DNA of 64,000 nucleotides from a virus. The notes beneath the pieces were generated by a model. The model ran no database searches, was not told where the DNA came from, and was given only the letters and a program-made list of their open reading frames with translations. Below, piece by piece: positions 15,025 through 51,308 of the stretch; positions within the stretch are counted from its first letter, which is position 1, and every line of letters starts with the position of its first letter. A program made the position numbers and the translations under genes. Location of the stretch: positions 36,981 to 100,980 of IMG/VR virus record IMGVR_UViG_3300020711_000298, one strand, 5' to 3'.

Positions 15025-16938
15025 ATGAAAAAAATTATTTTATTTATTCTAGTTGCGCTGTTGCCGTTTCTAGTTAAAAGTCAAACAATCCCCGCAGCTC
15101 CTGGTACAGGACATTATGTAATTATTGATACTGGGTACAATGTAGGTCCAACCGCAACAGGTACAACTACTGCTACTCTTTATTTCAGAAACAGCACTAC
15201 TAGTGATAAAATCACAGGTATGCAATTTAGAATATGGTACGATAGTCTAGCATTTAATGGTGCTTCTCCAACAGTATCATTACTTTATAGTTCTGCTAAC
15301 AAATATATACAATATGTTACTGATACAACTCATGGTAGTATCACTATCACTTTAGTTTATACTGGTAGTAGTTCAACTTATAATTTAGGAGATAGCGCGG
15401 CTTTTGCTATTACTTTCACTCACAATACTAATACATCTTTATTCAATACTTTAGATAGTATAAAAACACTAAAAGTATCAGGCGCTCAAACATACACTAA
15501 TTTAGCGTCTACTGTTTATGGTAATGATACTACATTAACTATTTACAGTTATGGTGGTAGATTTAATCGTCCTTTCCTTCATTATCATGGTCAATTTGTA
15601 AATGTTACCGGTACTAACACTAGAAACATAACTGTTTCTTTAGAGAAAAAACCTAAAACAAGTGGTACTTGGGTTAATATAAGTACTCAAACAACAGGTG
15701 CTGATGGTAAATTTAATTTTACAACTATATTAGATACTACTTATTGGGCTGCTAGATTAAATATTGAAGGTGATACAATGAATATAGGTAATATTATATC
15801 AACAGCCGATGCTCAAAAAATAAATCGTTTTGTACTTGGATTAGACAATCCTCAAGCTTTTGATTTTTACACTTCTGATGTAAACGGAGACCATAAAATA
15901 TCGATTTCAGATGAATATACTGTTTATGGTAGAATAGCAGGTAGATTTAGTACTTGGGTAAATGGTGTTAAAGATGTTTTATTCTTTACCTCAACCGAAT
16001 ATAGTACTATTTCTTCAAACCCAAATACAAATTATACAGCAACTATCTCAGGTACAACAAACGTATTATTTAATATAGTTGGTGGTAGCGTCGATTCAGT
16101 AACATATTATGTTGTGGGTGTAGGTGATGCTAATGGTACTGGATTTAAAATGGCTAAACTTACTCCAATTCAAATTATTAATCCCAACAATAACAACTAT
16201 ATAATAGATGAAACTGTTGAGTATTATGTAAATAATTTAAATACAATTGAAGTTAATTTACCTTCATTATCAGTAGATGCAGGTAATTTAGTAAATATAC
16301 CTATTAAAGTACTTACAAATGGCGAACAAATAGGTTCATTACAGTTAGCTTTAAAATTTGATACTACATTACTTGATTTTAAAGGTGTAATATCTGAGGA
16401 AAAAGTAGGTAATTGGATGTCATTTATAAACCCAAACAGTGGAGTAGTTGAATGGGGTGGATTTGATGCTAGTAATAATCAACATCTTTTAAATAATGAA
16501 GATCAAGTAGTAACATTACAATTTTTAGCTAAACAACCTAAAGATAATTGGACAACTTCTCCAATATATGTTACTCGTAAATTTGCAGGTAATGCTTTAG
16601 CTACTGATTTAAATATTAATCCTACTGATGGTAGAATTGAAGTTATGAGAATGTCTTCACCTGCTATTAATACAGATAATAATATTGCTTCTATTAATGT
16701 TTATCCTAATCCAACTAGTGGAGAAGTAGTAATTCATTTTTCTGTTCCTAAAGATGGTAATGTGACAGTTGCTTTTTATGATGTTAACGGAAAGAAAAAA
16801 TACACAGTAATACAAACCACAATGCCTAAAGGTGTTTATGCTTACAAAGCAAATATAGATGGATTAGCTAAAGGAGCATATAACGTTGTAATAACAACAA
16901 ATGAATCATCAGCTTACAATAAAACAATTTTAAACTAA
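15025..16938 (+). CDS. Secreted cohesin-like/dockerin protein with T9SS C-terminal sorting domain
   Basis: 637 residues. A signal peptide (1-20, ending LVKSQ) is followed by a beta-rich domain with cohesin character (~30-150). A dockerin-type module lies at ~252-312 with the calcium loop DVNGDHKISISD (285-296), and a second cohesin-like domain at ~411-505 (NIPIKVL, IGSLQLALKFD, VVTLQFLA). The final ~80 residues match the Por/T9SS sorting domain: INVYPNPTSGEVVIHF, then 'FYDVNGKK', 'KGAYNVVI' and a KTILN end. Such tails direct Bacteroidota proteins through the outer membrane to the surface. In a phage this implies export by the infected host, perhaps to alter the cell surface or capture glycans. 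A virion role is possible but does not explain the signal peptide. Confidence 0.75.
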   Translation: MKKIILFILVALLPFLVKSQTIPAAPGTGHYVIIDTGYNVGPTATGTTTATLYFRNSTTSDKITGMQFRIWYDSLAFNGASPTVSLLYSSANKYIQYVTDTTHGSITITLVYTGSSSTYNLGDSAAFAITFTHNTNTSLFNTLDSIKTLKVSGAQTYTNLASTVYGNDTTLTIYSYGGRFNRPFLHYHGQFVNVTGTNTRNITVSLEKKPKTSGTWVNISTQTTGADGKFNFTTILDTTYWAARLNIEGDTMNIGNIISTADAQKINRFVLGLDNPQAFDFYTSDVNGDHKISISDEYTVYGRIAGRFSTWVNGVKDVLFFTSTEYSTISSNPNTNYTATISGTTNVLFNIVGGSVDSVTYYVVGVGDANGTGFKMAKLTPIQIINPNNNNYIIDETVEYYVNNLNTIEVNLPSLSVDAGNLVNIPIKVLTNGEQIGSLQLALKFDTTLLDFKGVISEEKVGNWMSFINPNSGVVEWGGFDASNNQHLLNNEDQVVTLQFLAKQPKDNWTTSPIYVTRKFAGNALATDLNINPTDGRIEVMRMSSPAINTDNNIASINVYPNPTSGEVVIHFSVPKDGNVTVAFYDVNGKKKYTVIQTTMPKGVYAYKANIDGLAKGAYNVVITTNESSAYNKTILN

Positions 16939-16951
16939 AACAAAACAAATT

Positions 16952-17293
16952 ATGTCAGAAGAAACAAAAACAACCGACGGGGGTTGGTCAGGTCTAAAGA
17001 AAACATTAATAGGTACACTTACAACAGTTATCGCTGGTGCTGGTGTTTGGGTAAGTTCATTTTTGGGTGGTCATAAAGAAGAACCTAAAGCAGAACCTAA
17101 AGCCGCTACTGCTGCCCCTGCTCCAGCTGCTGCTGCTCCTGCCGCTGCTCCTGTGATTATTAATTTATCAAATAATAACACAAACCAACAAAAACAAACA
17201 GGTGGTAGTGCAACAGCCTCAGCTGCTACTAAAGAAAAACCAGTTGAGAAAAAAGAAACTAAAAAGAGCGAAACACAAGATGCTCCTTGGTAA
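16952..17293 (+). CDS. Small single-pass membrane protein, Ala/Pro-rich
   Basis: 113 residues. A short polar N-terminus, one hydrophobic segment (~18-40), then an Ala/Pro/Lys-rich stretch and a Lys/Glu-rich end. No signal cleavage site. It lies between two exported-protein genes. It could be an inner-membrane anchor, an energy-coupling or spanin-like partner, or a small holin; the sequence does not decide. Confidence 0.55.
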   Translation: MSEETKTTDGGWSGLKKTLIGTLTTVIAGAGVWVSSFLGGHKEEPKAEPKAATAAPAPAAAAPAAAPVIINLSNNNTNQQKQTGGSATASAATKEKPVEKKETKKSETQDAPW

Positions 17294-17307
17294 TTAAAAT
17301 TAACTCT

Positions 17308-18018
17308 ATGAAAATATTATATGTTATAGCTTTAATGCTGTTACCCTTTATTAGTGTTGCTCAAATCGGTTCTATTAAAACCGAACAATATCATGCCCGC
17401 TTTGAAAAAGGAATCTCATTAGATAGTGTTCTTAATTATAAGGACACTGTCAAAATTCCTATTCAATTATTAAAAGTAGGAATCAATTCAGAACTATATG
17501 AAATGTATCCTGAATTAAAAGATAAACGTGTTGGTTTGGGTGTAACAAACATTGTAATTGAATTTTTAGAAGAAACCAATCGCTTTGTATTTACTGAAGA
17601 TAAATTAGAAATCAAAGAAAGAATGATTGCTGAATATAAAGCATCAGCAAAAGGTTTTACTGAAAATAAAATAGATGGTAAAGGTAAAATCAAATTAGCC
17701 AAATATTTTGTTTATATCGAAGTATATGACTTTTCAGTATCTGAAGATGAAATAGTAAAAGCTAAAGATGGATCTAAAGTTACTCAAACAACTCGTTTAG
17801 GTTTACAAATCAAGTTTGTAGATGCAGAATCAGGAGAAATAATAACTGGTAGTGATATGGGTGAGGCTTCAACTGTAAAAACATCTAATCTTTTAGGTGA
17901 CATAGATGAAATTAAATTTAATCAATCCACAATAGGTATTTCTACTAAAAAAGCACTTGAATCTGCTTCAGTAAATGTCATTTTAAAATTGATTAAAAAA
18001 GGTGTATTTAAAAACTAA
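17308..18018 (+). CDS. Exported CsgG-like protein
   Basis: Start chosen at ATG 17308, giving a clean signal peptide (residues 1-18, ending SVAQ); an upstream TTG would add seven residues before it. The mature part follows the CsgG plan: a short 'GLGVTNIVIEFLEETNRFVF' repeat-like core, a 'YFVYIEVYDFSVSEDE' strand, 'LGLQIKFVDAESGEIITGSD', and a C-terminal helix with Ala/Ser. CsgG family proteins form outer-membrane pores for curli export. There is no lipobox Cys after the signal, unlike E. coli CsgG, so pore formation is not certain. Its stop overlaps the next gene. Confidence 0.6.
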   Translation: MKILYVIALMLLPFISVAQIGSIKTEQYHARFEKGISLDSVLNYKDTVKIPIQLLKVGINSELYEMYPELKDKRVGLGVTNIVIEFLEETNRFVFTEDKLEIKERMIAEYKASAKGFTENKIDGKGKIKLAKYFVYIEVYDFSVSEDEIVKAKDGSKVTQTTRLGLQIKFVDAESGEIITGSDMGEASTVKTSNLLGDIDEIKFNQSTIGISTKKALESASVNVILKLIKKGVFKN

Positions 18019-19141
18019 AATATTAATCTTATTAGTATTGTTTGGACTGACTTCTTATGGTCAGTCTTTTACATATTCCTATAAAGATCCATGTAATGGT
18101 ACTTTAAAAACATTAATAATACCAGCAAGCCAAAATACAATATCTGTTACTTACTATAATCAAATACAAACATTTAATATAAACGATTTTTCTAATGGTG
18201 TTTTTGATAAGTGGGTATCAAATACTTACAGTCAATATAGCGTTACATCTCCTTGTAGTGGATTAGCATTTACTGCTACTACTAAACAAAACCAAGAACT
18301 TACAGCTACATTAACCGGGCTAGTAACCACTTTAACAAACCTAAACTTCCCCGATCCTAATACTCCAGACCCAGGTGAACCCGTTCCTACCCCTGATATT
18401 CCTTCAGGTAGTGGTTCTTCAGATGTATTAAGTGGTACAAGTAATAGTGTAACATCATCAAGTGGAGGTGGAAGCGATTCAAAACCATCTTCAAGTTCTA
18501 AAGACAAACCAGGAGTATTAAAACCAACAATTGTAGGTAGTTCAGATCTACTTGCTTTTAGCAATACAGATGCTTCTAAAGGTGGTAAAGTATCAGGTGG
18601 TTATACTTCTACAAGATGGGATGGTAAAGTATCTCATGGTATAATGTTTGATTATTCAACTAATATCCAAGGTCCTAATATAACTGGATTTTATTCGTTT
18701 GCTAAAGGTAAAAGAATGAATTTGATATCAAATACTATTTCTATTGGTTTTAGTGGGAAAGGATTATTTTATAGTACATTAGCTGCTGGTCAACTTAGAA
18801 ATTATAAAAAAATAAAAATAATAGGTTTATTAGCAGGTACGTATGGAGAAATGTATCAACAAAAACTTATAGGTACTTCTATAATAACTGGTTTGATGTA
18901 TGATATGAAAGTAGGTAAAAAAATAGCAATAAAATTTACAAATTTGTTTGTATATTCTCCTTACATGCAATATTACAATGATATGTTATTAAAATCACCT
19001 TATGTTATTTTACCTTCTATTGGTACAAATTTAAGCTTATCTAAATCATTTAAATTTAATATCAATGCAGGTGGTGCTTATCAAGTTAATAGCGGAGCTC
19101 TTAATTATACAATAACAATAGGAACAAGGTTAGCATTATGA
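18002..19141 (+). CDS. Exported outer-membrane beta-barrel-like protein
   Basis: 379 residues from a GTG start overlapping the CsgG-like gene by 17 bases. Signal peptide 1-20 (ending TSYGQ), an N-terminal domain (~22-115) with two Cys (34 and 84), a Pro/Ser/Gly-rich linker (~118-175), then ~200 residues of alternating amphipathic strands ending TITIGTRLAL, as in Bacteroidota outer-membrane barrels. The barrel is inferred from strand pattern and the terminal aromatic/hydrophobic strand. Its overlap with both neighbours shows it belongs to the same operon. Confidence 0.6.
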   Translation: MYLKTKILILLVLFGLTSYGQSFTYSYKDPCNGTLKTLIIPASQNTISVTYYNQIQTFNINDFSNGVFDKWVSNTYSQYSVTSPCSGLAFTATTKQNQELTATLTGLVTTLTNLNFPDPNTPDPGEPVPTPDIPSGSGSSDVLSGTSNSVTSSSGGGSDSKPSSSSKDKPGVLKPTIVGSSDLLAFSNTDASKGGKVSGGYTSTRWDGKVSHGIMFDYSTNIQGPNITGFYSFAKGKRMNLISNTISIGFSGKGLFYSTLAAGQLRNYKKIKIIGLLAGTYGEMYQQKLIGTSIITGLMYDMKVGKKIAIKFTNLFVYSPYMQYYNDMLLKSPYVILPSIGTNLSLSKSFKFNINAGGAYQVNSGALNYTITIGTRLAL

Positions 19142-20298
19142 TAAAATATATTTTAACTATATTATTTACCTTATTTTCTCTAGCACTACTAGGACAAACA
19201 TTTACTTATTCAGGATACATTTATAATGCTGATGGTAGTGGAGCAGGTAATGTTCCTGTTAAATTATATTCAAGAACCACCACCACCACTGTTGTAAGTA
19301 ATTTAAATACAAAGATATACTCAACACACAATGGAAACGGTAGCACAAACCAGTACAACCAGTATGCAAGTACTGTAACCGATATGGGTTACTTTTTCAA
19401 CACAGGATATAGCAACACTAGGTTAAACTGGTCCGGTACTTTACCTGCTACTACCGTGTTAAATTGGGGTACCTGGACTACTCTATATTATGCAGGAGCT
19501 AGTGTACCAAATGGAGGAGATTATTTTTCAACCGATGTTACAGCCACCTTTGTACCTAAAGAAACAGGTACATACTATTTTGGTGTTAATTCAGATGATG
19601 CTGGTGATATTTTAATAAACGGAAGTCTAGTTGCTTCTTATTATGGTGGTCATGGTATGGGAGGATATCAAATAGGTGGTATTTCTATGACAGCCGGCAC
19701 ATCTTATACCTTTGAAGCAAGACAACAAGAATATGGTGGTGGTGAAGGTTTGGCTGTTGCTTGGAAAAGACCATCTCAATCAACTTATACTTTACAAACA
19801 GACGAGATAGGAACTGCTACCACAACTACTTCTGCTTGGTCTTTATATGGGACTTACTACACAGATTCTACAGGTAAGTATACAATAAGTGTACCTACAA
19901 ATTCTACCTTAAGTTGGCAATTAGAATTTGATGCTTATACTCCCTCTACAACATTACAAATCTCAGATTTTATAGGTATAGACAATGTTATACTTAATAA
20001 AACAATATTAAATGGTTTACATTATTATCTATATGATTTAAATAGTACTAACAATATTACAATATCAGATTTGTATTATATAGCAGGTAAAAAAAGTGGT
20101 AGATTTTCTACTTGGGGAAATTCATTTACCTCAAGATTATTTACTCCGTCTCAATATACTTCTATAACCTCAACAACATCAAATTTAAAATCTACTTATC
20201 CTGGTGTAACTCAAATTTTAATATCACCAGCAACAAGTGGAGGCACTGCAAATTATTATCTAATAGCCCCAGGTTATTCTGGAAAAGTAAATTATTAA
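19138..20298 (+). CDS. Secreted PA14-dockerin protein
   Basis: 386 residues. Signal peptide 1-20 (ending LLGQ), then a PA14-type beta-barrel domain (~120-225): 'GTYYFGVNSDDAGDILINGS', 'GGISMTAGTSYTFEAR' and 'EGLAVAWKRPSQ'. PA14 domains often bind glycans. A dockerin-like module follows (~270-325) with the loop DLNSTNNITISD and GRFSTW, closely matching the module in the cohesin-like protein at 15025. There is no T9SS tail; the protein could be held on the surface by binding a cohesin. Its ATG overlaps the stop of the barrel gene. Confidence 0.7.
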   Translation: MIKYILTILFTLFSLALLGQTFTYSGYIYNADGSGAGNVPVKLYSRTTTTTVVSNLNTKIYSTHNGNGSTNQYNQYASTVTDMGYFFNTGYSNTRLNWSGTLPATTVLNWGTWTTLYYAGASVPNGGDYFSTDVTATFVPKETGTYYFGVNSDDAGDILINGSLVASYYGGHGMGGYQIGGISMTAGTSYTFEARQQEYGGGEGLAVAWKRPSQSTYTLQTDEIGTATTTTSAWSLYGTYYTDSTGKYTISVPTNSTLSWQLEFDAYTPSTTLQISDFIGIDNVILNKTILNGLHYYLYDLNSTNNITISDLYYIAGKKSGRFSTWGNSFTSRLFTPSQYTSITSTTSNLKSTYPGVTQILISPATSGGTANYYLIAPGYSGKVNY

Positions 20299-20301
20299 AA
20301 T

Positions 20302-20748
20302 ATGAAAAAATTATTATTCGCTTTAATGTTAATTCCTACTCTATCATTTGGACAATGTGTAAGAGTTGATTCTGTTTGGTGTAACAAAAAAGTTAAACAA
20401 ATAGGCACCAGAAGTGTTCTTTTAGGTGTAAAACAAATAACTGAAGAAATATTATCAGAAAAATATAAACTTTGTGATTCTAATGCAATTTCGGTTAAAA
20501 TAGAAATATATAAAATAGGTATGCCTTCAAGCAATTTTAAAATAGCAGGCGCCGGAGAAGCCAAACAAACCACACAAGTTTACACTAGAATGTATTTTGG
20601 CGATAAAGTTGTAGAAGGATTAGGTGAATCTGAAACTAAAGCAGGTTACATACTTATTGAATTAAATGACGATAAAATACCATTTAGTAATACAACAATA
20701 GGTAATGCATTAAAGAAATCAATACTCGATGCTTCCGGAAAATTATAA
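20302..20748 (+). CDS. Small exported protein in the surface cassette
   Basis: 148 residues with a signal peptide (1-17, ending SFGQ) and two Cys near the mature N-terminus (19 and 27). The core has strand patterns 'VSVKIEIYKIG'-like and 'TQVYTRMYFGDKVVEG', followed by a C-terminal helix with 'GNALKKSILDA', reminiscent of the CsgG-like protein's end. It may be a small paralogue or accessory of that protein. Last gene of the cassette. Confidence 0.55.
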   Translation: MKKLLFALMLIPTLSFGQCVRVDSVWCNKKVKQIGTRSVLLGVKQITEEILSEKYKLCDSNAISVKIEIYKIGMPSSNFKIAGAGEAKQTTQVYTRMYFGDKVVEGLGESETKAGYILIELNDDKIPFSNTTIGNALKKSILDASGKL

Positions 20749-20778: not shown

Positions 20779-21075
20779 ATGAACTTTAAACAATGGATTA
20801 TTGATCTTTTCAAAGATGAAAGAGGATCAACATCAGTAAAACCAGTAGTGGCCGTGATTGGCACTTTATTTCTTTGCGTAACTATGACATTAAACAGTTA
20901 CACACATGAAGAATTTAAACCAGCTCCAGAATTAGTAAACGCTGTATTAGTTATAACAGCAATTGGTATGGGTGCTGATACTTTAGATAAATTCACTACA
21001 AAGAAACCAGACCCAATTACTCCAGCTGCTCCTGCTGAAACACCAACCCCAGAAGAAACATCAACAGAAGCGTAA
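20779..21075 (+). CDS. Holin candidate
   Basis: 98 residues with two hydrophobic segments (~21-40 and ~52-68), a charged N-terminus (KQWIIDLFKDERG) and a Pro/Glu/Thr-rich hydrophilic tail. Size and topology fit a two-segment holin, which would open the inner membrane for the endolysin. The Ntn-hydrolase gene starts immediately after its stop codon and the GH19 endolysin gene follows. Confidence 0.6.
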   Translation: MNFKQWIIDLFKDERGSTSVKPVVAVIGTLFLCVTMTLNSYTHEEFKPAPELVNAVLVITAIGMGADTLDKFTTKKPDPITPAAPAETPTPEETSTEA

Positions 21076-21975
21076 ATGATAAAACTAACCAGTATCTTAA
21101 AGAGTATAGCAAATAAATCAACACTTAATGAGTGTGTTGTAGCAGCTATTAAACTCGGTAATGACAAAATTTTAGCTAAAAATAGAGATCGCGCTTATGA
21201 TCCTACTATTAAAATTATTCATGAGTTAATAGACGATATAGAAGTTTGTTATCTATATGATGAAATTACCGATTACTCTGAAGGTATGAATGAGTATGGT
21301 ATAGGTATTATAAATGCTTCATTAATGGTGGCTGAAGATGAAGCTCAAGGCACTATGCAAAGTAGTGAAAAAAATGATAAGAAAAAAACAGCTTCTCCAT
21401 CATATGATGGTATGAAAATAAGACACGCCTTAGCTAACAAAAAATTATCTAAGGCGGTTCGTTCTATAGTATCATACCAAGGTGAAGACCCAAAAGAAGT
21501 AGGTATTAAAGGTGAAACTATAGTTTCTAATCCTAAATATACCTTTATCGTTGAACTTACAAGTAAACATTTACCTGTAATTACAAAAATGAAACCTGAC
21601 ACTAAAGTAGTAGTACGAACAAATCATGGAATACACTATAAAGATGCAGGTTACACTAGTGGACCTAAAAGAGCATCATCTATTTCTAGAAAAGAAATAG
21701 CTCAAAAAGAGTTAGAAGACATAAAAAATGAAAATGAAATTCTTCCTGTATTGTCTAAATCTATAACAACAGATAATTACAATAATCCTTATAGAACAGA
21801 TAATAAATATGGAATGAATACAACATCACAAATTAAAATGAATCTAACTCAACTTACTTTTGAACTAGATTATGATGATGAACACAGCAAATTTGAAGGA
21901 TACGAAAATAAACTCCCAGAAGGATATGAGCCTAAAATAAAGGTAAGATTTAAACAAACAGAATTACATAAATAA
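21076..21975 (+). CDS. Ntn-hydrolase-like amidase
   Basis: 299 residues. The region from Cys20 reads CVVAAIKLGNDKILAKNRDR, then 'YLYDEITDYSEGMNEYGIGI', which is the N-terminal nucleophile hydrolase pattern (C45/choloylglycine-hydrolase-like: Cys nucleophile, NRD, and NE.G). If so, the first 19 residues would be removed by self-processing to free Cys20. The second half is not recognised. It lies between holin and endolysin genes with no gap, so a role in lysis or in cutting an envelope amide is plausible but unproven. Confidence 0.5.
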   Translation: MIKLTSILKSIANKSTLNECVVAAIKLGNDKILAKNRDRAYDPTIKIIHELIDDIEVCYLYDEITDYSEGMNEYGIGIINASLMVAEDEAQGTMQSSEKNDKKKTASPSYDGMKIRHALANKKLSKAVRSIVSYQGEDPKEVGIKGETIVSNPKYTFIVELTSKHLPVITKMKPDTKVVVRTNHGIHYKDAGYTSGPKRASSISRKEIAQKELEDIKNENEILPVLSKSITTDNYNNPYRTDNKYGMNTTSQIKMNLTQLTFELDYDDEHSKFEGYENKLPEGYEPKIKVRFKQTELHK

Positions 21976-21987
21976 AAAACAAATAAA

Positions 21988-22587
21988 ATGGATTTACAAA
22001 AACTAAAAGGACACGTTCCTGATTCGGTTATTGAAATGTTACCGGATACAATCGCGAAATTTGAATTAAATACACCATTACGCTTAGCACACTTTTTAGC
22101 TCAAGCAGGTCATGAATCAGGTGGTTTTAAAGCATTAAATGAAAACCTAAATTATGGAGCTAAAGGTTTACGTAGCATCTTTGGAAAATATTTTCCTGAT
22201 GACGCTAAAGCAGCTTTATATGAACGTAAACCTGAAAAAATAGCTAACTTAGTTTATGGTAATCGTATGGGTAATGGTCCTGAAACATCAGGTGATGGTT
22301 GGAAATTTCATGGTCGTGGATTTATTCAATTAACTGGTAAAGAAAATTATGCTGCTTTTAGTAAAGAAATAAATGAAGATTGCGTTACTAATCCAGATTT
22401 AATCGCAACTAAATATCCTTTAGCCTCTGCTGCTTGGTTTTTTCATAAAAATGGATTACATAAAATAGCTGACGAAGGTGCTAACGAAGCAACAGTCACT
22501 AAAGTTACTAAAAAAGTAAATGGTGGTGTTTTAGGTCTTGAAGATAGACAAAGACACTTTAATGAATACTATTCTTTAATAAAATAA
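21988..22587 (+). CDS. Endolysin, glycoside hydrolase family 19
   Basis: 199 residues. GH19 features: 'AHFLAQAGHESGGF' (catalytic Glu), NLNYGAKGLRSIFGKYF, 'NRMGNGPETSGDGWKFHGRG' and 'FIQLTGKENYAAFSKE', 'ASAAWFFHKNGL', VTKKVNGG. These enzymes cut glycan strands of peptidoglycan. No signal peptide, so release depends on the holin. A strong terminator follows directly. Confidence 0.93.
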   Translation: MDLQKLKGHVPDSVIEMLPDTIAKFELNTPLRLAHFLAQAGHESGGFKALNENLNYGAKGLRSIFGKYFPDDAKAALYERKPEKIANLVYGNRMGNGPETSGDGWKFHGRGFIQLTGKENYAAFSKEINEDCVTNPDLIATKYPLASAAWFFHKNGLHKIADEGANEATVTKVTKKVNGGVLGLEDRQRHFNEYYSLIK

Positions 22588-31466: not shown

Positions 31467-33350
31467 ATGTATCAATCAATATATTATTCACATAACGGAG
31501 ATGATAAAGGTACTTGTTACCTTAGAGATGATAAAAAAGGATGGAGTGAATTTAAATATAAACCTACAGTTTATAAATTAGATCATGAAGGTGAATATGA
31601 AACATTATTTGGTGATAGATGTTCTCCAATTCAAGGAAAATTTGATTGGAATGATCCTACTGTATTAGAAAAAGATATTCAAAAAGAATTAGCTATATTA
31701 AGAGATCTATATTATAAAGATGATTTTGCTCCTGAAAAACATAATATAGTTTATTTCGATATTGAGATTGAAATATTAGGTACTTTAAATCCTCAAACTG
31801 TTAGAGAAGCAAACGCTCAAATGACATCAGTAGCTATTATAGATGTTTCTACTAATAAAAAATATTGTTATATTGTAGATGAATCTAAAGTTATTGAATA
31901 TGTAGACAAAGATAATAAAGAAATCATACCATGTATTAATGAAAAAGATTTATTAAGTAAATTTTTAACTAAATGGGTTGAGTTAGATCCTACTATTATA
32001 GTTGGTTATAATAGTGATTTCTTTGATATTCCATACACTTACTTTAGAATTAAAAAAATACTAGGAGAAGATATGGCTTTATTTTTATCTCCTATTAAAA
32101 AAATAAATGATAATATTTATAACTCATATTCACCAATAACAATAGGAGGTGTGAATAGTCTTGATTATATGCTTTTAGTTAAAAAGTATATCATGAAAGA
32201 AGAATCATCTTATAAATTAAATGATATAGGATTAAAATATGCTAAATTAGGTAAAGTCGAATATAATGGCTCATTAGATAAACTATTTAAAGACAACCCA
32301 GATAAATTTATTGAATATAATCTTCGAGATGTTGAAATTATTGAGGCTTTAGAAAACAAATTACAATTTATCAAATTAACAGTTTTAATATGCCATTTAT
32401 GCCATGTACCTTATGAATCAATATATTATAATACAGTATTAAATGAAGGTGCTATATTAACATATTTAAAACGTAAAAATATAATATCACCTAATAAACC
32501 AACAACTACAAATAAAAATATTAAAGAATTAAATATAGGTGATGAAGTACAACACCAGCGAGGAACTCCAACTGTTGAAGGTGTGATTACTTATATAGAT
32601 GAAACAACTAATAAAGCTCAAGTTAGGACTAAAGCTAATACTTTAAAAGAAAGAAGTTTAAAATCAATAAGAAGAAAAGAATCATACGCTGGAGGATATT
32701 TATTAGAACCTAAACCTGGATTATACTCATATGTAAGTGATTCTGACTTTACTAGTCTATACCCAAGTATTATTAAATCTTTAAATTTAGGGATTGAAAC
32801 ATTAATAGGTAGAATTGTAACTAAAACTAATTATGAACAATATAATTCTTTAGAAAAATTAAAAGAAAAGGATCCTGAAGAAATAATTCATTTAGAAAAA
32901 TTAGATATTAAAACATATAATTTAAAACCTGGTAAAGTTAAAATAAAAGATTTAATAGAATTAATTGAAGAAAACAATTGGTCAATATCAGCTAGTGGAG
33001 CATTTTATAGAAATGATATTAAAAGTATATCATGTGAAGTATTGGAAGATTGGTTTGGAAAACGAGAACATTATAGAGGATTAAAAAAACAAGCAGGTAA
33101 AAAAGAAGATTGGGAAAATTATAAATTATATGATTTGTATCAAATGGCATTTAAAATCTTACAAAATGCACTTTATGGTACTTATGCTATAAATGGATGG
33201 AGATATACTGATGGGTATAAAATATGTTCTGCTTCTATTACAAATAGTGGTCAACGATTAGTTAAATCTAGTATAATTTATGCTGATAATTTAATTGAAG
33301 AATATATTAATACAGATGTAGAAAAATTAAAAAAATTACTAAATTTATAA
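31467..33350 (+). CDS. DNA polymerase family B, N-terminal part (exonuclease, palm motif A, fingers)
   Basis: 627 residues, like the first two thirds of T4 gp43. Exonuclease motifs: YFDIEIE, 'NSDFFDIPYTYF', YNLRDVEIIE. Polymerase motif A is SDSDFTSLYPSI and motif B is 'KILQNALYGTYA'. Motif C is missing because the frame ends at TAA 33348, just after an A7 run; it lies on the next gene. About 50 residues before motif A (~350-400, NIGDEVQHQRGTP to SIRRK) form an insertion absent from T4 gp43. A -1 shift at the A7 run would extend the protein by ~35 residues. Confidence 0.92.
   Translation: MYQSIYYSHNGDDKGTCYLRDDKKGWSEFKYKPTVYKLDHEGEYETLFGDRCSPIQGKFDWNDPTVLEKDIQKELAILRDLYYKDDFAPEKHNIVYFDIEIEILGTLNPQTVREANAQMTSVAIIDVSTNKKYCYIVDESKVIEYVDKDNKEIIPCINEKDLLSKFLTKWVELDPTIIVGYNSDFFDIPYTYFRIKKILGEDMALFLSPIKKINDNIYNSYSPITIGGVNSLDYMLLVKKYIMKEESSYKLNDIGLKYAKLGKVEYNGSLDKLFKDNPDKFIEYNLRDVEIIEALENKLQFIKLTVLICHLCHVPYESIYYNTVLNEGAILTYLKRKNIISPNKPTTTNKNIKELNIGDEVQHQRGTPTVEGVITYIDETTNKAQVRTKANTLKERSLKSIRRKESYAGGYLLEPKPGLYSYVSDSDFTSLYPSIIKSLNLGIETLIGRIVTKTNYEQYNSLEKLKEKDPEEIIHLEKLDIKTYNLKPGKVKIKDLIELIEENNWSISASGAFYRNDIKSISCEVLEDWFGKREHYRGLKKQAGKKEDWENYKLYDLYQMAFKILQNALYGTYAINGWRYTDGYKICSASITNSGQRLVKSSIIYADNLIEEYINTDVEKLKKLLNL
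33329..33335 (+). other. A_AAA_AAA slippery heptamer at polymerase split
   Basis: In zero frame the bases read A AAA AAA, the classic -1 slippery form. The -1 frame then continues KKITKFITETNNNYSIISK and on to KWKYK, stopping at 33437-33439. Those residues look more protein-like than the zero-frame reading of the same bases. No clear downstream stem-loop was seen. Confidence 0.45.
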
Positions 33351-33413
33351 CAGAAACTAATAATAATTATTCTATTATATCTAAGGTATGTAGGGATATT
33401 TTTTCTCAAACTA

Positions 33414-34352
33414 ATGATTATAAATGGAAATATAAATAATATGGAAGATTTCAATCCTAAATATGTAATTGCTAGTGATACAGATAGTATGTATATCTGC
33501 TTAGAATTACTATTAAAAAAATTATACCCTAATTTGAACGAAATGGATGAAGATGAAAAAATTAATAATCTAATTAAAATATCTAAACATCTTCAGGATA
33601 AATTTAATGAAAACTTAAGAGATATATCAAAACGAGTTTTTAATATTAATAAAAAACATTATTTTGAATTAAAACAAGAAGTAATAGTTAAAAGAGCATA
33701 CTGGTCAGGTAAACGAAGATATGCTATGTGGGTTGTTAATAAAGAAGGTGTACCAATACCTGCTGACCATAAAGATGCTTTTGATATGAAAGGTTTAGAT
33801 ATAATGAAATCTAACTTTCCTCCATTATTTAGAGATTTTGGTGAAAATTTAATTAAAAAAATTCTATTTGATACTCCTAAACCTGAAATAGATAAATTTA
33901 TTTTGGATTGGAAAAAATCATTAGATTTAATAGATTGGAAAAAATTATTAAAACCTACTGGTCTAAAAAAACTAGATGAATATATTAGTAAAAAACCAGA
34001 CGCAGGTGAAATATTTTCTAAATTAGCTTTAAAATGCCCTGTTAATACTAAAGCAGCAATATACACAAATGACCTATTAAAATTTAAAAAACTAAATAAA
34101 AAATATCAACAATTCCAGATAGGTGATAAAATGTATATAGCTTATTTAAAAGAAAACCCATACCGAATAGATGTGTTAGGAATTAATGGATATGATGATG
34201 CTCCTGAAATTTTAGAGTTTGTTGAAAAATATATTGATAGAAATCAAATGTTTGAATCTGTTATTAAAAATAAAATAGAAAACCTATTTGCTGATTTAAA
34301 TTGGGGTATGCCTATATTTAATGAAAAAGTAAATAAATTCTTTAAATTCTAA
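33414..34352 (+). CDS. DNA polymerase family B, C-terminal part (palm motif C, thumb)
   Basis: 312 residues. Motif C is VIASDTDSMYICLE; 'VIVKRAYWSGKRRYAMWVVN' is the thumb KKRY-type motif, and the rest follows the end of T4 gp43. ATG 33414 opens the frame, but homology appears to begin at ATG 33441 (MEDFNPKYV). The two parts probably associate into one polymerase, as in T4-like Aeromonas phages with split gene 43. A paired indel, or a sequence error in the A7 run, is the alternative. Confidence 0.88.
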   Translation: MIINGNINNMEDFNPKYVIASDTDSMYICLELLLKKLYPNLNEMDEDEKINNLIKISKHLQDKFNENLRDISKRVFNINKKHYFELKQEVIVKRAYWSGKRRYAMWVVNKEGVPIPADHKDAFDMKGLDIMKSNFPPLFRDFGENLIKKILFDTPKPEIDKFILDWKKSLDLIDWKKLLKPTGLKKLDEYISKKPDAGEIFSKLALKCPVNTKAAIYTNDLLKFKKLNKKYQQFQIGDKMYIAYLKENPYRIDVLGINGYDDAPEILEFVEKYIDRNQMFESVIKNKIENLFADLNWGMPIFNEKVNKFFKF

Positions 34353-35468: not shown

Positions 35469-37085
35469 ATGAGTAAAATTATAGAATTCGGCCCAGAAGC
35501 TAGAAAAAAATTATTTAATGGAGTTGAGAAATTATCCAACGCTGTTACATCAACTTTAGGCCCTAATGGTCGTAATGTTGTTATTTCAAAACCAGGTGAA
35601 TACCCAGCTAGTACAAAAGATGGAGTTACTGTAGCTAAATCAATAACACTTGAAGATCCAATTGAAGAATTAGGTGTACAAATGGTTAAACAAGCTGCTA
35701 TTAAAACAGCAGATACAGCTGGTGATGGTACAACTACATCAACTTTATTAGCGACCGAAATGGTTAGACAAGGTTTAACGCATTTAAGTAACGGAGCTAA
35801 CGCGGTAGAAATTAAACGCAGTATAGATGCCGCTGTTAAAGATGTCCTTGAATTTATACGCACACAAATTAAAGAAAATATATCATCTGAGGAACAACTA
35901 AAACAAATTGCTTCCATCTCAGCAAATAACGATCCTGAAGTAGGAGAATTAATTGCTACAGCTATGGAAAAAGTAGGTCGTGAAGGTGTTGTTCATATTG
36001 AAGAATCAAAATCAGGTGAAACATATCTTGAAACAGTAGAAGGTATGCAGTTTGATCGTGGTTATAAATCACCTTATTTTGTTACTGATAATAACTCAAT
36101 GACTAGTACTTTAAATGATGTTTTAATTCTTATAGCAGATAAAAAATTCACTCAAGTAAAAGAATTATTACCTATACTTGAAGCTGTATCTCAACAAAAT
36201 AAATCTTTACTTATTGTAGCTGAAGATGTTGAAGGTGAAGCATTAGCTACACTTATTGTAAATAAAGCTAGAGGTATATTAAAAGTAGCGGCTGTAAAAG
36301 CTCCTGATTTTGGTGATCGTCGTAAATTGATTTTGGAAGATATGGCTATTTTAACAGGTGGTCAAGTGTTTAGTACTGAAAAAGGTATGAAATTAGATAA
36401 ATTTAGTTGGGATTGGTTTGGTAAAGCACGTGTTGTAACAATTACTAAAGACACTACTACTATTATTGATGGTAAAGGAGATGAAAATTCTGTATCACAA
36501 CGTATAACAGAACTACAACAACAAATTGAAAATTCAAAAACACCATTTGAACAAGAAAAATTACAAGAACGTTTAGCTAAATTTATAGGTGGTGTAGCAA
36601 TTATTCATGTTGGTGGAAATACTGAAACCGAAATGAAAGAAAAGAAAGATCGTGTAGATGATGCTTTACATGCTACAAAAGCAGCCATTGAAGAAGGTAT
36701 TGTACCAGGTGGTGGAGTAGCATTATTACACGCACGTAATGGTATTAAAAACCGTGATACTATTGGCTCTAATATAGTTTGGCATGCTTGCGCAGCCCCA
36801 CTTAATAAAATACTTAAAAACGCAGGATATGAAGATTTAGCAATATTCCAAGTTATAAGTGATACTAACAACAGTGAAAATTGGAATGGTTGGGATTTGA
36901 AAGAAGAAAAATTAACCAACATGAAAGAAGCAGGAATCATCGATCCAGCCAAAGTAACCCGTTGCGCTCTTGAAAATGCAGCATCAGTAGCAGGAACCAT
37001 TTTGTTAACAGAATGTACTGTTGTTGATAAACCAGAAGAAAAGAAAGCAGACGAAGGATTTGGAGGTATGGGAGGAATGTTTTAA
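35469..37085 (+). CDS. groEL: Chaperonin GroEL
   Basis: 538 residues, full length. 'KLSNAVTSTLGPNGRNVVIS', 'STKDGVTVAKSI', AGDGTTTSTLLA (nucleotide binding), 'VVHIEESKSGETYLETVEGM', 'ALHATKAAIEEGIVPGGGVA' and the C-terminal GGMGGMF tail are all present. With the phage GroES it likely folds phage proteins such as capsid or replisome subunits. Complete chaperonin pairs are rare in phages. Located inside the replisome cluster. Confidence 0.97.
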   Translation: MSKIIEFGPEARKKLFNGVEKLSNAVTSTLGPNGRNVVISKPGEYPASTKDGVTVAKSITLEDPIEELGVQMVKQAAIKTADTAGDGTTTSTLLATEMVRQGLTHLSNGANAVEIKRSIDAAVKDVLEFIRTQIKENISSEEQLKQIASISANNDPEVGELIATAMEKVGREGVVHIEESKSGETYLETVEGMQFDRGYKSPYFVTDNNSMTSTLNDVLILIADKKFTQVKELLPILEAVSQQNKSLLIVAEDVEGEALATLIVNKARGILKVAAVKAPDFGDRRKLILEDMAILTGGQVFSTEKGMKLDKFSWDWFGKARVVTITKDTTTIIDGKGDENSVSQRITELQQQIENSKTPFEQEKLQERLAKFIGGVAIIHVGGNTETEMKEKKDRVDDALHATKAAIEEGIVPGGGVALLHARNGIKNRDTIGSNIVWHACAAPLNKILKNAGYEDLAIFQVISDTNNSENWNGWDLKEEKLTNMKEAGIIDPAKVTRCALENAASVAGTILLTECTVVDKPEEKKADEGFGGMGGMF

Positions 37086-42268: not shown

Positions 42269-43771
42269 ATGTTTAAACCAGTTAGTTTATTTTACACAGA
42301 CGGATATAAGATTGGCCACAAGAAAATGTTGGCCCCAGGAACCACAAAATTATATGGTACTTGGATTCCTCGTAGCACAAAGTATGCTCCTACCGGTGTT
42401 ACAAAAATAGTATCGTTTGGTCAACAGCTTGTAGTTCGTTGGTTAAATGATGAGTTTACAGAACATTTTTTCAACCAACCAAAATCAGTAGCAACCCAAT
42501 TTGGTAAAGATATGTCAATGTATCTTGGAATGGATTATGATGCTACCCATTTTGAAGCACTTCATGATTTAGGTTATTTACCTATTCGAATTAAAGCATT
42601 ACCAGAAGGTATTGAAACATTACCTAATGTTCCTCATATGACCTTTATTAACACCGTAGATGGTTTTGCTTGGTTAACTTTATATTTGGAAACAATTATT
42701 TCCTCTTTGGCTTGGAAACCTTCAACATCAGCCACTATTGCTCTACAATATCGTAGGAATTTAGTTCAATGGGTTATGAAAACAGATCCGGCTAATGCAT
42801 TTTTAATTCCTTTCCTTGCTCATGATTTCTCTGCTCGCGGTTTATCACCTTGGGATATGTTATCAAGCGGTTTAGGACATGCTACTTCGTTTAGAGGTTC
42901 TGATACCATTATTTGTATTCCGGGTGCTCGTTATTTTTATAATGAACCTGAAACAGAGGTTTGTATCAATTCAGTAAATGCTTCTGAACATAGCGTTTCA
43001 ACAACTAAAATCTTTACGGTTGGTGAACAACAAATGATTGCGGATTGGTTGGTTGATTTTCCTAAAGGAATATTATCAATCGTATCAGATACATTTGATT
43101 TATGGAAATTAATTACCGAATATTTACCAGCAAACAAAGAAGCGATAATGGCTCGTGACGGTAAGTTAGTCATTCGTCCTGACTCAGGTGATCCAGTTGA
43201 TATTATCTGTGGTTCATTTTTACAAAGTGACCGAGATTTATCGGAAAACAAAAATGCAATTTGGACAAGTGAAGAAAAAGGTGTAATCGAATTACTTTGG
43301 GAAATCTTCGGTGGTACAATCAACGAACAAGGTTACAAAGTTCTTGATCCACACATCGGAGCCATTTACGGTGACTCAATTACATTGGAACGTCAGATTC
43401 AAATATATGAAAGGTTAGCCGCTAAAGGTTTTGCTTCAACTAATATTGTACTCGGTATTGGTTCTTATACATATCAAATGAATACTCGTGATACATTAGG
43501 TTTTGCTGCTAAAGGTGCCTGGTTTGAAGTTGATAAAAATGGTACTAAGGTTGGTTATGATATTTACAAAGATCCAGTAACCGATTCAGGTAAAACAAAG
43601 AAATCTTTGAAAGGTCTTATTATGGTAGATGAAAATCTTGAAGTACACACCCAATGTACACCTCAACAAGAGGCTCAAGGTTTACTACAAACCATTTATA
43701 TGGATGGTAAATTCTACAATCAAACAACATTAACTGAAATTCGCGCTAAACTTGAACAAATATGCAAATAA
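42269..43771 (+). CDS. NAMPT-like nicotinamide (ADP-ribosyl/phosphoribosyl)transferase
   Basis: 500 residues, the full length of nicotinamide phosphoribosyltransferase. YTDGYKIGHKKM at the N-terminus, 'HDFSARGLSPWDML' and ATSFRGSDTI, ASEHSV (active-site His), SDTFDLWKLI, VIRPDSGDPVDI, 'GAIYGDSITLERQIQIYERL' and 'IYKDPVTDSGKTKKSLKGLI' follow the family. NAMPT joins nicotinamide to PRPP; the phage variant Namat joins it to ADPR-pyrophosphate to give NAD+ directly. Paired with the Prs-like gene, and no NMN adenylyltransferase gene is seen here, so the direct route is favoured. Confidence 0.92.
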   Translation: MFKPVSLFYTDGYKIGHKKMLAPGTTKLYGTWIPRSTKYAPTGVTKIVSFGQQLVVRWLNDEFTEHFFNQPKSVATQFGKDMSMYLGMDYDATHFEALHDLGYLPIRIKALPEGIETLPNVPHMTFINTVDGFAWLTLYLETIISSLAWKPSTSATIALQYRRNLVQWVMKTDPANAFLIPFLAHDFSARGLSPWDMLSSGLGHATSFRGSDTIICIPGARYFYNEPETEVCINSVNASEHSVSTTKIFTVGEQQMIADWLVDFPKGILSIVSDTFDLWKLITEYLPANKEAIMARDGKLVIRPDSGDPVDIICGSFLQSDRDLSENKNAIWTSEEKGVIELLWEIFGGTINEQGYKVLDPHIGAIYGDSITLERQIQIYERLAAKGFASTNIVLGIGSYTYQMNTRDTLGFAAKGAWFEVDKNGTKVGYDIYKDPVTDSGKTKKSLKGLIMVDENLEVHTQCTPQQEAQGLLQTIYMDGKFYNQTTLTEIRAKLEQICK

Positions 43772-47821: not shown

Positions 47822-49255
47822 ATGAAACCACAGTTTATGTATTTACCTCCAGAGAAGAGGAAGAAAATTCTCCTAATCACAGACGATATTAGAGTACACT
47901 CAGGTGTAGCAACAGTAGGTAGAGAAATAATTTTACATACTGCTCAACATTTTAATTGGGTTAATATTGGAGGCTCAGTACAGCATCCTGAAGAAGGTAA
48001 ACGTTTAGATTTATCCCAATCAACTAATGAAACAGCAGGATTAACAGATTCATCTGTAACATTATACCCAACAAGCGGGTACGGAAACCCAGATATGTTA
48101 CGTGCTATAATTAATATTGAAAAACCAGATGCTTTAATGTTAATCACCGATCCAAGATATTTTACTTGGGTGTTTCAAATGGAAAATGAAATCCGTAAAA
48201 GTATTCCTATTACTTACTTAAACATATGGGATGATTATCCAGCTCCATTATATAACAGAGCTTTTTATGAATCATGTGATTTATTGATGGGTATAAGTAA
48301 ACAAACAGTCAATATTAATAAATTAGTATTAGGTGATAAAATAAAAAATAAAATTATAACTTATGTTCCTCATGGTTTGAATCATGAAATGATGAAACCT
48401 ATAGATAAAAATGATCCTGAATTAATTAAATTCAAGAAAAATTTATTTGGAAATAAAGAATATGATTTTGTTTTATTCTTTAATTCACGTAATATTAGAC
48501 GTAAACAAATACCTGACACAATGTTGGCTTATAAGTTATTTATAGATCAACTATCTATTGAACAAGCTAAGAAATGTGCTTTTGTATTACATACTGAAAT
48601 AGTAAGTGAACATGGTACTGATTTAGAAGCGGTTAGAGAATTACTTCTAAATGAAGATAAATATAATGTTTATTTCTCAACTGAAAGATATAGCACACAA
48701 CAAATGAATTTTTTATATAATTGTTCTGATGCTCAAATATTATTAACTTCAAATGAAGGATGGGGATTAAGTTTAACTGAAGCTATATTAGCAGGTAAAC
48801 CAATAATAGCTAATGTAACTGGTGGTATGCAAGATCAAATGCGTTTTTCTAAAGACGGTAAATGGATTGATTTTGATGCTGATTTTCCTTCAAATCATAA
48901 TGGTACAATTAAAGAATGTGGAGAATGGGCATTTCCGGTATTTCCATCTAATCGTTCTATTGTAGGTTCACCTATGACTCCTTATATTTGGGATGATAGA
49001 TGTACTGCTGAAGATGCTGCTATTCAAATTATGAATGTTTATCAATTAGATAAAGAAGAAAGAGAACGTAGAGGATTAGCAGGTAGAGAATGGGCTATTG
49101 GAGAAGAAGCAGGATTCACATCTGAAATAATGGGTGAAAGAGTTATAAATTCATTAGATATTTTATTTGATATTTGGGAACCAAGAGAAAAATATGAAAT
49201 AGTAAATGTAAATGAATCAAAAGATAACATTGTAAACCATAAATTAGTATATTAA
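47822..49255 (+). CDS. Glycosyltransferase, GT4 type
   Basis: 477 residues with two Rossmann-like halves. 'KILLITDDIRVHSGVATVGR' is the N-terminal nucleotide-binding start, 'YVPHGLNHEMM' the linker, and 'SNEGWGLSLTEAILAGKPII' contains the C-terminal E-x7-E donor-binding motif. It transfers a sugar from a nucleotide-sugar donor. First gene of a ~9 kb glycan cluster. The acceptor is unknown: phage DNA base, virion protein or host glycan. Confidence 0.82.
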   Translation: MKPQFMYLPPEKRKKILLITDDIRVHSGVATVGREIILHTAQHFNWVNIGGSVQHPEEGKRLDLSQSTNETAGLTDSSVTLYPTSGYGNPDMLRAIINIEKPDALMLITDPRYFTWVFQMENEIRKSIPITYLNIWDDYPAPLYNRAFYESCDLLMGISKQTVNINKLVLGDKIKNKIITYVPHGLNHEMMKPIDKNDPELIKFKKNLFGNKEYDFVLFFNSRNIRRKQIPDTMLAYKLFIDQLSIEQAKKCAFVLHTEIVSEHGTDLEAVRELLLNEDKYNVYFSTERYSTQQMNFLYNCSDAQILLTSNEGWGLSLTEAILAGKPIIANVTGGMQDQMRFSKDGKWIDFDADFPSNHNGTIKECGEWAFPVFPSNRSIVGSPMTPYIWDDRCTAEDAAIQIMNVYQLDKEERERRGLAGREWAIGEEAGFTSEIMGERVINSLDILFDIWEPREKYEIVNVNESKDNIVNHKLVY

Positions 49256-50003: not shown

Positions 50004-51308
50004 ATGAGTAAACCACTACTTATAATTAGCTCCCCATTTGACACATATTCAGGTTATGGAGCCAGATCAAGAGATCTTATCAAAGCTATTATTGAATTAG
50101 ATAAGTATGATGTAAAATTATTATCACAACGTTGGGGAAATACACCTTTTGGATTCTGCAAAGATAATCCTGAATGGTCATTTTTAATGGAATGTATACT
50201 AAACACTCCTCAGCTTCCTAAACAACCCGAATTATGGATGCAAATTACAGTACCAAATGAATTCCAACCTATAGGTAAATTTAATATTGGATGTACTGCA
50301 GGTATTGAAACAACAAATTGCTCTTCAGAATGGATTGAAGGATGTAATAGAATGAATTTAAATTTAGTTTCATCTAATCACTCTAAAAAAGTATTTGAAG
50401 AATCAAAATTTCAAAAATTAAACAAACAAACTAATCAACCTGAAGGGATACTTCAATTAGAAAAACCAATGGAGGTATTATTTGAAGGAGCATTAACTGA
50501 TATTTTTCAAACTATAGAAAAACATCAAATTGAAAATATTAATTTAGATTCTATTAAAGAGGATTTTAATTATCTTTTTGTAGGCCATTGGTTACCAGGT
50601 GATATGGGTGAAGATAGAAAAAATGTTAGTTTATTGATTAAAGCTTTTTATGAAACATTTAAAAATAAAAGCAAAAAACCAGGACTAATTTTAAAAACAT
50701 CTATAGTTGGTTCATCATATATGGATAGAGATGAAATACTTAAACGTATTAAACAAATTAAAAAAACAGTTAATTCTAAAGATTTACCTAATATTTATTT
50801 ATTACAAGGAGAATTATCTGATTCGGAAATAAATGAATTATATAATCATCCCAAAGTAAAAGCAATGGTATGTTTAACTAAAGGTGAAGGTTTTGGTCGT
50901 CCATTGCTTGAATTTAGTTTAATTAAAAAACCTATTATCACTACAAATTGGAGTGGACATATAGATTTTTTAAATAAAGAATTTACACCATTAATTGGAG
51001 GTCAATTAACACCTGTTCATCCAAGTGCTGCTAACCAATTTTTACTTAAAGAAAGCCAATGGTTTTCACCTGATCTTGGTCAAGTAGGATTTTATTTAAG
51101 AGATATGTTTGAAAATTATAAAAACTATCTTACAGGTGCTAAACGTCAAGCATATAAAAGTAAAACTGAATTTAGTTGGGATAAAATGAAAGAAAAAATA
51201 GATTCAATATTTACACAATATGTACCTGAATTCCCTAAAGAAATTAAACTTAAACTACCAGAAATTAAAAAAATATCATTACCTAAAAAAGAAGAAATAA
51301 ATGGATAA
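50004..51308 (+). CDS. Glycosyltransferase, GT4 type
   Basis: 434 residues. LLIISSPFDTYSGYGARSRD opens the N-terminal domain; 'YLFVGHWLPGDMGEDRKNVS' and 'CLTKGEGFGRPLLEFSLIKK' carry the C-terminal donor-binding motif with a conserved Glu. Divergent from the GT4 protein at 47822. The next gene overlaps its end by 8 bases. Confidence 0.8.
   Translation: MSKPLLIISSPFDTYSGYGARSRDLIKAIIELDKYDVKLLSQRWGNTPFGFCKDNPEWSFLMECILNTPQLPKQPELWMQITVPNEFQPIGKFNIGCTAGIETTNCSSEWIEGCNRMNLNLVSSNHSKKVFEESKFQKLNKQTNQPEGILQLEKPMEVLFEGALTDIFQTIEKHQIENINLDSIKEDFNYLFVGHWLPGDMGEDRKNVSLLIKAFYETFKNKSKKPGLILKTSIVGSSYMDRDEILKRIKQIKKTVNSKDLPNIYLLQGELSDSEINELYNHPKVKAMVCLTKGEGFGRPLLEFSLIKKPIITTNWSGHIDFLNKEFTPLIGGQLTPVHPSAANQFLLKESQWFSPDLGQVGFYLRDMFENYKNYLTGAKRQAYKSKTEFSWDKMKEKIDSIFTQYVPEFPKEIKLKLPEIKKISLPKKEEING

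Follow-up and report, generated by a model that had tools for sequence, protein, structure and literature searches.

T9SS type A sorting domains have been reported in Cryophage genes, one of which also carries a PA14 domain, and a role in superinfection has been suggested for them (PMC7468147). The locus described here resembles the Cryophage in combining phage-borne T9SS type A sorting domains with a PA14 domain. However, the Cryophage tails are reported on an endoglucanase, a glycoside hydrolase and the PA14 protein, whereas here the tail is on a cohesin protein and none was found on the PA14 protein, and the terms cohesin and dockerin are absent from the Cryophage text (PMC7468147). A second likeness is to the curli (T8SS) genes of pelagiphages and methylophage Melnitz, where a CsgG-fold protein also lies amid exported proteins (PMC9599517, PMC9004378); phage CsgG and CsgF have been connected with lysis in one study (PMC9004378) and with exclusion or aggregation in another (PMC9599517). 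In contrast to those systems, no Pfam CsgF match was obtained here in the neighboring protein, and the CsgG-fold protein is paired with a T9SS scaffold. A curli fibre was rejected for our locus, since the curlin repeat was found in 0 of 12 phage records.

The arrangement of modules recalls the anchoring and adaptor scaffoldins of cellulosomes (type I cohesin-dockerin), with which it shares the cohesin sequence and fold, dockerin-like partner modules and an anchor-adaptor-tip logic. Unlike in cellulosomes, we did not encounter dockerin-bearing enzymes on the cohesin scaffold: among the partner proteins scanned, heads were assigned to lectin C, PA14, GEVED or laminin-G or had no assignment, the anchor is a T9SS tail, and the dockerin-like module has one intact loop and scores below the family cut-off. 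The same cassette is present in the Immutovirus Flavobacterium phage vB_FspM_immuto, in which gp13 is annotated as lectin C-type and gp15 as cohesin domain-containing; it differs in that the scaffold is divided between two genes, and the T9SS tail is unnamed in the record's annotation. We found no relevant paper on cohesin or dockerin in phages, as judged by title and abstract. The components are of known kinds, and no description of their phage-borne combination was found in a search that most subscription journals lay outside.

The window, the whole 64,000-nucleotide stretch that we analyzed, comprises bases 36981-100980 of a 100,980-base IMG/VR virus record. Upstream in that record, and apart from the cassette (Table 1), are the genes for terminase, portal, major head and tail sheath. 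The first gene of the cassette, which we call the scaffold, is the ORF at 15025-16938 (+ strand, ATG start, 637 aa), present as the earlier note gave it. It encodes, in order, a signal peptide, a weak cohesin, a transthyretin-like domain, a dockerin-like module, a cohesin and a T9SS type A tail. Elsewhere in the window, a DNA polymerase appears as two ORFs (31467-34352), both matching one uninterrupted 864-aa ORF in the related locus L006; a GroEL-type chaperonin (phrog_5725, E 5e-157) is found at 35469-37085; and 42269-43771, 47822-49255 and 50004-51308 match a nicotinamide phosphoribosyltransferase and two glycosyltransferases.

Table 1. Features of the scaffold gene and of the genes downstream (window positions)
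Feature	Position	Strand	Remarks
Signal peptide of scaffold, residues 1-19	15025..15081	+	Charged start, hydrophobic run, end KS before Q
First cohesin-like domain (weak)	15163..15516	+	PF00963 E 1.4e-4, 18.3 bits, under cut-off
Transthyretin-like beta domain	15574..15768	+	Profile match to PDB chains; strands in AlphaFold model
Dockerin-like module, one intact calcium loop	15763..15957	+	Family profile A8 E 2.3e-28 (profile includes this module among its rows)
Junction GDANGTGFKMAKLTPI, adaptor and anchor fused	16123..16170	+	Two genes in immuto-like phages; in-frame TGA in L004/L005/L006
Second cohesin domain	16246..16644	+	PF00963, residues 408-540
T9SS type A C-terminal sorting domain	16699..16929	+	PF18962, TIGR04183, PDB 8glk
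Small single-span membrane protein	16952..17293	+	Next cassette gene in 61/61 loci; alignment A9
CsgG-fold protein with signal peptide	17287..18018	+	Likely start 17308; predicted outer-membrane pore subunit
Exported protein, predicted outer-membrane	18002..19141	+	Signal peptide in 95/97 relatives; alignment A7
Tip protein	19138..20298	+	Signal peptide, PA14 head 19513-19800, dockerin-like module 19924-20115
Small exported protein	20302..20748	+	Profile comparison with CsgG-like family, prob 56, E 1.1e-4
Holin-like small membrane protein	20779..21075	+	Sequence only, near endolysin
Endolysin	21988..22587	+	phrog_181 E 1.9e-68

The earlier note had proposed a signal peptide, a cohesin-like domain and a T9SS tail, and all three held. 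The N-terminus, MKKIILFILVALLPFLVKS followed by Q, fits a Sec signal peptide by inspection and by a crude sequence rule, which we used in place of a trained predictor and which is satisfied by 106 of 116 relatives and 0 of 82 holin-like or endolysin controls. In profile searches, the tail (Por_Secre_tail, PF18962, residues 559-635 of 637) scores 38.6 bits against a cut-off of 27 (E 1.4e-9), with NCBIfam TIGR04183 in agreement (29.8 against 23), and the second cohesin scores 37.2 bits against 24.1 (E 4.2e-9). A profile of 43 relatives links the tail to PDB 8glk (E 2.8e-5) and the second cohesin to PDB sequence 6kg8 (E 8.9e-6). The cohesin fold was recovered from an AlphaFold model (mean pLDDT 79), which Foldseek aligned with solved single-domain cohesins at a TM (target) of 0.61-0.72, for example 2vn5_A (0.72, rmsd 3.0, 140 columns). 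The cohesin at 15163-15516, the transthyretin-like domain and the downstream partner genes were absent from the earlier note; the first of these domains reaches 24.8 bits in one relative, over the PF00963 cut-off of 24.1, and positions 185-227 of the 43-relative profile match transthyretin-like PDB chains (E 0.0014-0.0023). A PHROGs search gave no match for the scaffold.

The claim of a canonical dockerin did not stand. Dockerin_1 (PF00404) gives only 13.7 bits against a cut-off of 22.9, and inspection of alignment A8 located the D-x-N...D pattern in the second loop only, so that one of the two calcium loops is intact and the two calcium-binding loop-helix repeats of a type I dockerin are not present. 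That loop, DVNGDHKISISD, lies at residues 285-296 (15877-15912), and its positions 1, 3 and 12 are D, N and D without exception in 24 diverse dockerin-like modules; the AlphaFold model places helices at 260-270 and 294-304. Dockerin_1 was matched at E<=1 in 13 of 24 relatives (best 2.9e-5), and the L006 tip protein reaches 20.4 bits, against the cut-off of 22.9. Because Dockerin_1 stays under its cut-off for this protein and solved dockerins match the module profile at only E 0.68-3.7, we call the module dockerin-like.

Relatives were found in three scans of viral contigs, 80 of 188 being kept from the third. The only annotated phages to match were the immuto isolates, which come from Flavobacterium sp. 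LMO8, and a scan of genome contigs with alignment A5 gave three loci, all in metagenome-assembled genomes. Cohesin and Por_Secre_tail were both matched in all 38 relatives containing the C-terminal half. Median pairwise dN/dS was 0.06-0.19 across the scaffold domains and 0.40 for the signal peptide, in samples of at most 150 pairs, which have sequences in common and are not independent; the value of 0.19 for the T9SS tail indicates purifying selection. Since both models are matched in every such relative, and every domain is under purifying selection, the domain matches are not due to chance. A T9SS tail was matched exactly once in each of 11 other phage records. Across 12 phage records, cohesin matches number two in 10 and one in 2, and dockerin-like modules two in 11 and three in one. 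A variant cluster in a Flavobacterium metagenome-assembled genome (L120:5921-11957) encodes a 597-aa exported protein near CsgG-like, holin-like and endolysin genes; its cohesin match stays below the cut-off, and Pfam gave no T9SS tail for it.

The scaffold occurs in fused and split forms. In immuto-like phages, the adaptor (cohesin plus dockerin-like module) and the anchor (cohesin plus T9SS tail) are exported as separate proteins. Of the 88 scaffolds that are not identical to one another, the fused form accounts for 66 and the split form for 19, the second half in the latter being the type with a signal peptide of its own; the junction of the other 3 contains an in-frame TGA. That the halves form one protein in 66 loci and two in 19 suggests that they act together; the pattern speaks for joint function and is not by itself proof of binding. 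In the remaining group, the TGA is followed directly by ATG (L004:11069-11080, L005:1740-1751, L006:11069-11080), and the anchor half has the T9SS tail and lacks a signal peptide, which we count against a surface complex. This half appears to be still translated, given its dN/dS ratios of 0.10-0.19, possibly by readthrough or else by expression from the following ATG. In L004, TGA ends 1 of 16 matched cassette and neighbor genes.

The order of the genes after the scaffold is fixed. In all 61 informative loci (non-identical viral loci with at least 6.5 kb downstream of the scaffold, immuto included), the core runs small membrane protein, CsgG-like protein, outer-membrane candidate, small CsgG-like protein. 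In 45 of these loci, the tip gene immediately precedes the small CsgG-like gene (in one of the 45, the outer-membrane gene occurs as two pieces); it follows that gene in 1 locus and is missing from the downstream side in 15. When we recounted with full scaffolds only, a tip gene was nearby in 60 of 60 counted loci, on the downstream side where the scaffold is fused (44 loci) or has the TGA (2) and on the upstream side where it is split (14).

The small membrane protein, its span judged from sequence, has a long Pro/Ala/Asn tail with an invariant Trp as its last residue. For the CsgG-fold protein, the AlphaFold model has a mean pLDDT of 68.9, and the best 19 PDB matches found by Foldseek are all CsgG (E 5.2e-8 to 3.7e-6, prob 1.00); given their modest TM (0.36-0.51) and high rmsd, we take the CsgG fold as supported and a pore as a prediction. 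Pfam CsgG was matched at E<=1 in 5 of 24 relatives (best 1.9e-4) and not in the window protein, which also has no Cys at the end of its signal peptide in a lipobox test; only 54 of 106 CsgG-like proteins satisfy the crude signal-peptide rule. The predicted outer-membrane protein is made up of a conserved N-domain, a low-complexity linker and a C-domain that is probably a beta-barrel; no convincing Pfam match and no Pfam CsgF match were obtained for it, and a PDB search gave only chance-level matches. The small exported protein, with no convincing Pfam match, is possibly a shortened CsgG relative, and only 56 of 92 such small CsgG-like proteins satisfy the signal-peptide rule. In some cassettes, an extra exported, possibly beta-barrel protein is encoded near the tip or small CsgG-like gene, at L006:16308-17126, L029:11211-12017 and L045:6148-6948. 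No PHROG match was found for the holin-like protein, and between its gene and the endolysin gene, 21076-21975 has a sub-cut-off match to a C45 autoproteolytic acyltransferase/hydrolase (NF040521, E 3.9e-6).

The tip protein combines a PA14 head (PF07691, E 2.5e-10) with a C-terminal dockerin-like module (A8, E 1.5e-26) whose family is related to that of the scaffold's middle module (HHalign prob 99.9, E 4e-33). Pfam heads among tip proteins are PA14, lectin C, GEVED and laminin-G, some having no match, and no enzyme domain was found among the partner proteins that were scanned, a subset of all partners. These heads are exchanged: between L110 and L116, identity is 100% for the CsgG-like protein, 97% for the scaffold and 75% for the dockerin-like module, and 24% for the head. 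If a swap is scored when the head is under 30% identical and the module at least 25 points higher, 284 of 849 locus pairs with CsgG-like proteins at least 80% identical are swap-like, in a set where the same loci recur across many pairs, which are therefore not independent; the percentages are approximate, because head boundaries were set at fixed residue offsets. At L025:6495-8771, one phage has two tip proteins in succession with different heads.

Together, these data make it fairly probable, in our judgment, that the scaffold is the anchor-plus-adaptor of a phage-encoded, cellulosome-like surface display complex (anchor-adaptor-tip) on infected Bacteroidota cells, an estimate that covers the architecture of the complex and not its purpose. 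The earlier note's proposal of a surface scaffold placed by the host T9SS is thereby borne out in part: placement is well supported by the sequence, and the canonical dockerin is lost. Support for T9SS-directed placement comes from the signal peptide, from the tail retained by every relative examined, from the single such gene per phage record examined, from the distance between the scaffold and the structural genes, and from the isolate's host being a Flavobacterium. The idea of a scaffold is strengthened by the second exported protein, which shares the dockerin-like module and whose head can be swapped and is often of a sugar-binding kind, as well as by the split and fused gene pair. In this model, the scaffold and tip protein would enter the periplasm via Sec, as their signal peptides suggest, and the host T9SS would recognize the sorting tail and fix the scaffold outside the infected cell, as expected from what is known of the family. 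The module counts and the gene fusion are consistent with the tip protein's dockerin-like module docking on one scaffold cohesin, while the remaining dockerin-like/cohesin pair would join adaptor to anchor. Surface or environmental glycans could then be bound by the exchangeable head, which is PA14 in the window and a C-type lectin or another kind in relatives. No T9SS tail was found on the tip protein and its crossing of the outer membrane is not accounted for, which also counts against the model, as do the sub-cut-off dockerin-like module with its single intact loop and the assignment of signal peptides by a crude rule; an outer-membrane route or site for the tip protein may be offered by the CsgG-fold protein together with the beta-barrel candidate. 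More tentatively, the cassette might encode a dedicated multi-protein organelle on the outside of the infected cell, with a T9SS-set cohesin anchor, an adaptor, interchangeable glycan-binding tips and CsgG-type pores as the outer-membrane route.

What such a complex would be for is a separate question. The likeliest purpose, though one we would favor only cautiously, is that it covers or cross-links the surface polysaccharide of the infected cell and so blocks the adsorption of competing phages. Nearly as likely, with the same architecture and a difference in purpose only, the tips may stick infected cells or debris to neighboring hosts or polysaccharide particles, raising the encounter rate between progeny and host. 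The lectin C, PA14, GEVED and laminin-G heads would suit this role, and an analogous "sibling capture" idea has been put forward for phage curli (PMC9004378, PMC9599517), but clumping was not seen by the authors of the methylophage study in the system they used (PMC9004378).

We regard it as rather unlikely that the cassette is an outer-membrane stage of lysis, in which CsgG-fold pores and exported glycan-binding proteins, held by the scaffold, would let progeny out by weakening the capsule or outer membrane. In 53 of 88 loci, holin-like or endolysin genes lie close to the scaffold, some of the other loci ending at a contig or locus edge; the small membrane protein, holin-like, CsgG-like and endolysin genes lie close together in L120; and a lysis role has been proposed for phage CsgGF (PMC9004378). 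However, neither the swapping of heads between near-identical cassettes nor the keeping of the T9SS tail is readily explained by lysis. It is improbable that the matches merely reflect generic beta-sandwiches in a protein that stays periplasmic and makes no use of the T9SS: the beta-rich scaffold model does match many unrelated structures too, but two independent curated models are over cut-off and retained in all 38 relatives, and the tail is under selection. Least probable are virion adhesion or receptor-binding proteins, a reading that head swapping, reminiscent of tail-fibre evolution, might favor but that we set low given the signal peptides, the T9SS tail and the separation from the structural genes; no virion proteomics was found in the literature searched.

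If a surface display complex is indeed formed, these phages would exploit a host secretion system to build an adhesive structure of modular design on the cell they infect, the tips of which are exchanged between otherwise near-identical phages. The isolate immuto, growing on Flavobacterium sp. LMO8, makes surface location, T9SS dependence and an effect on superinfection directly testable.
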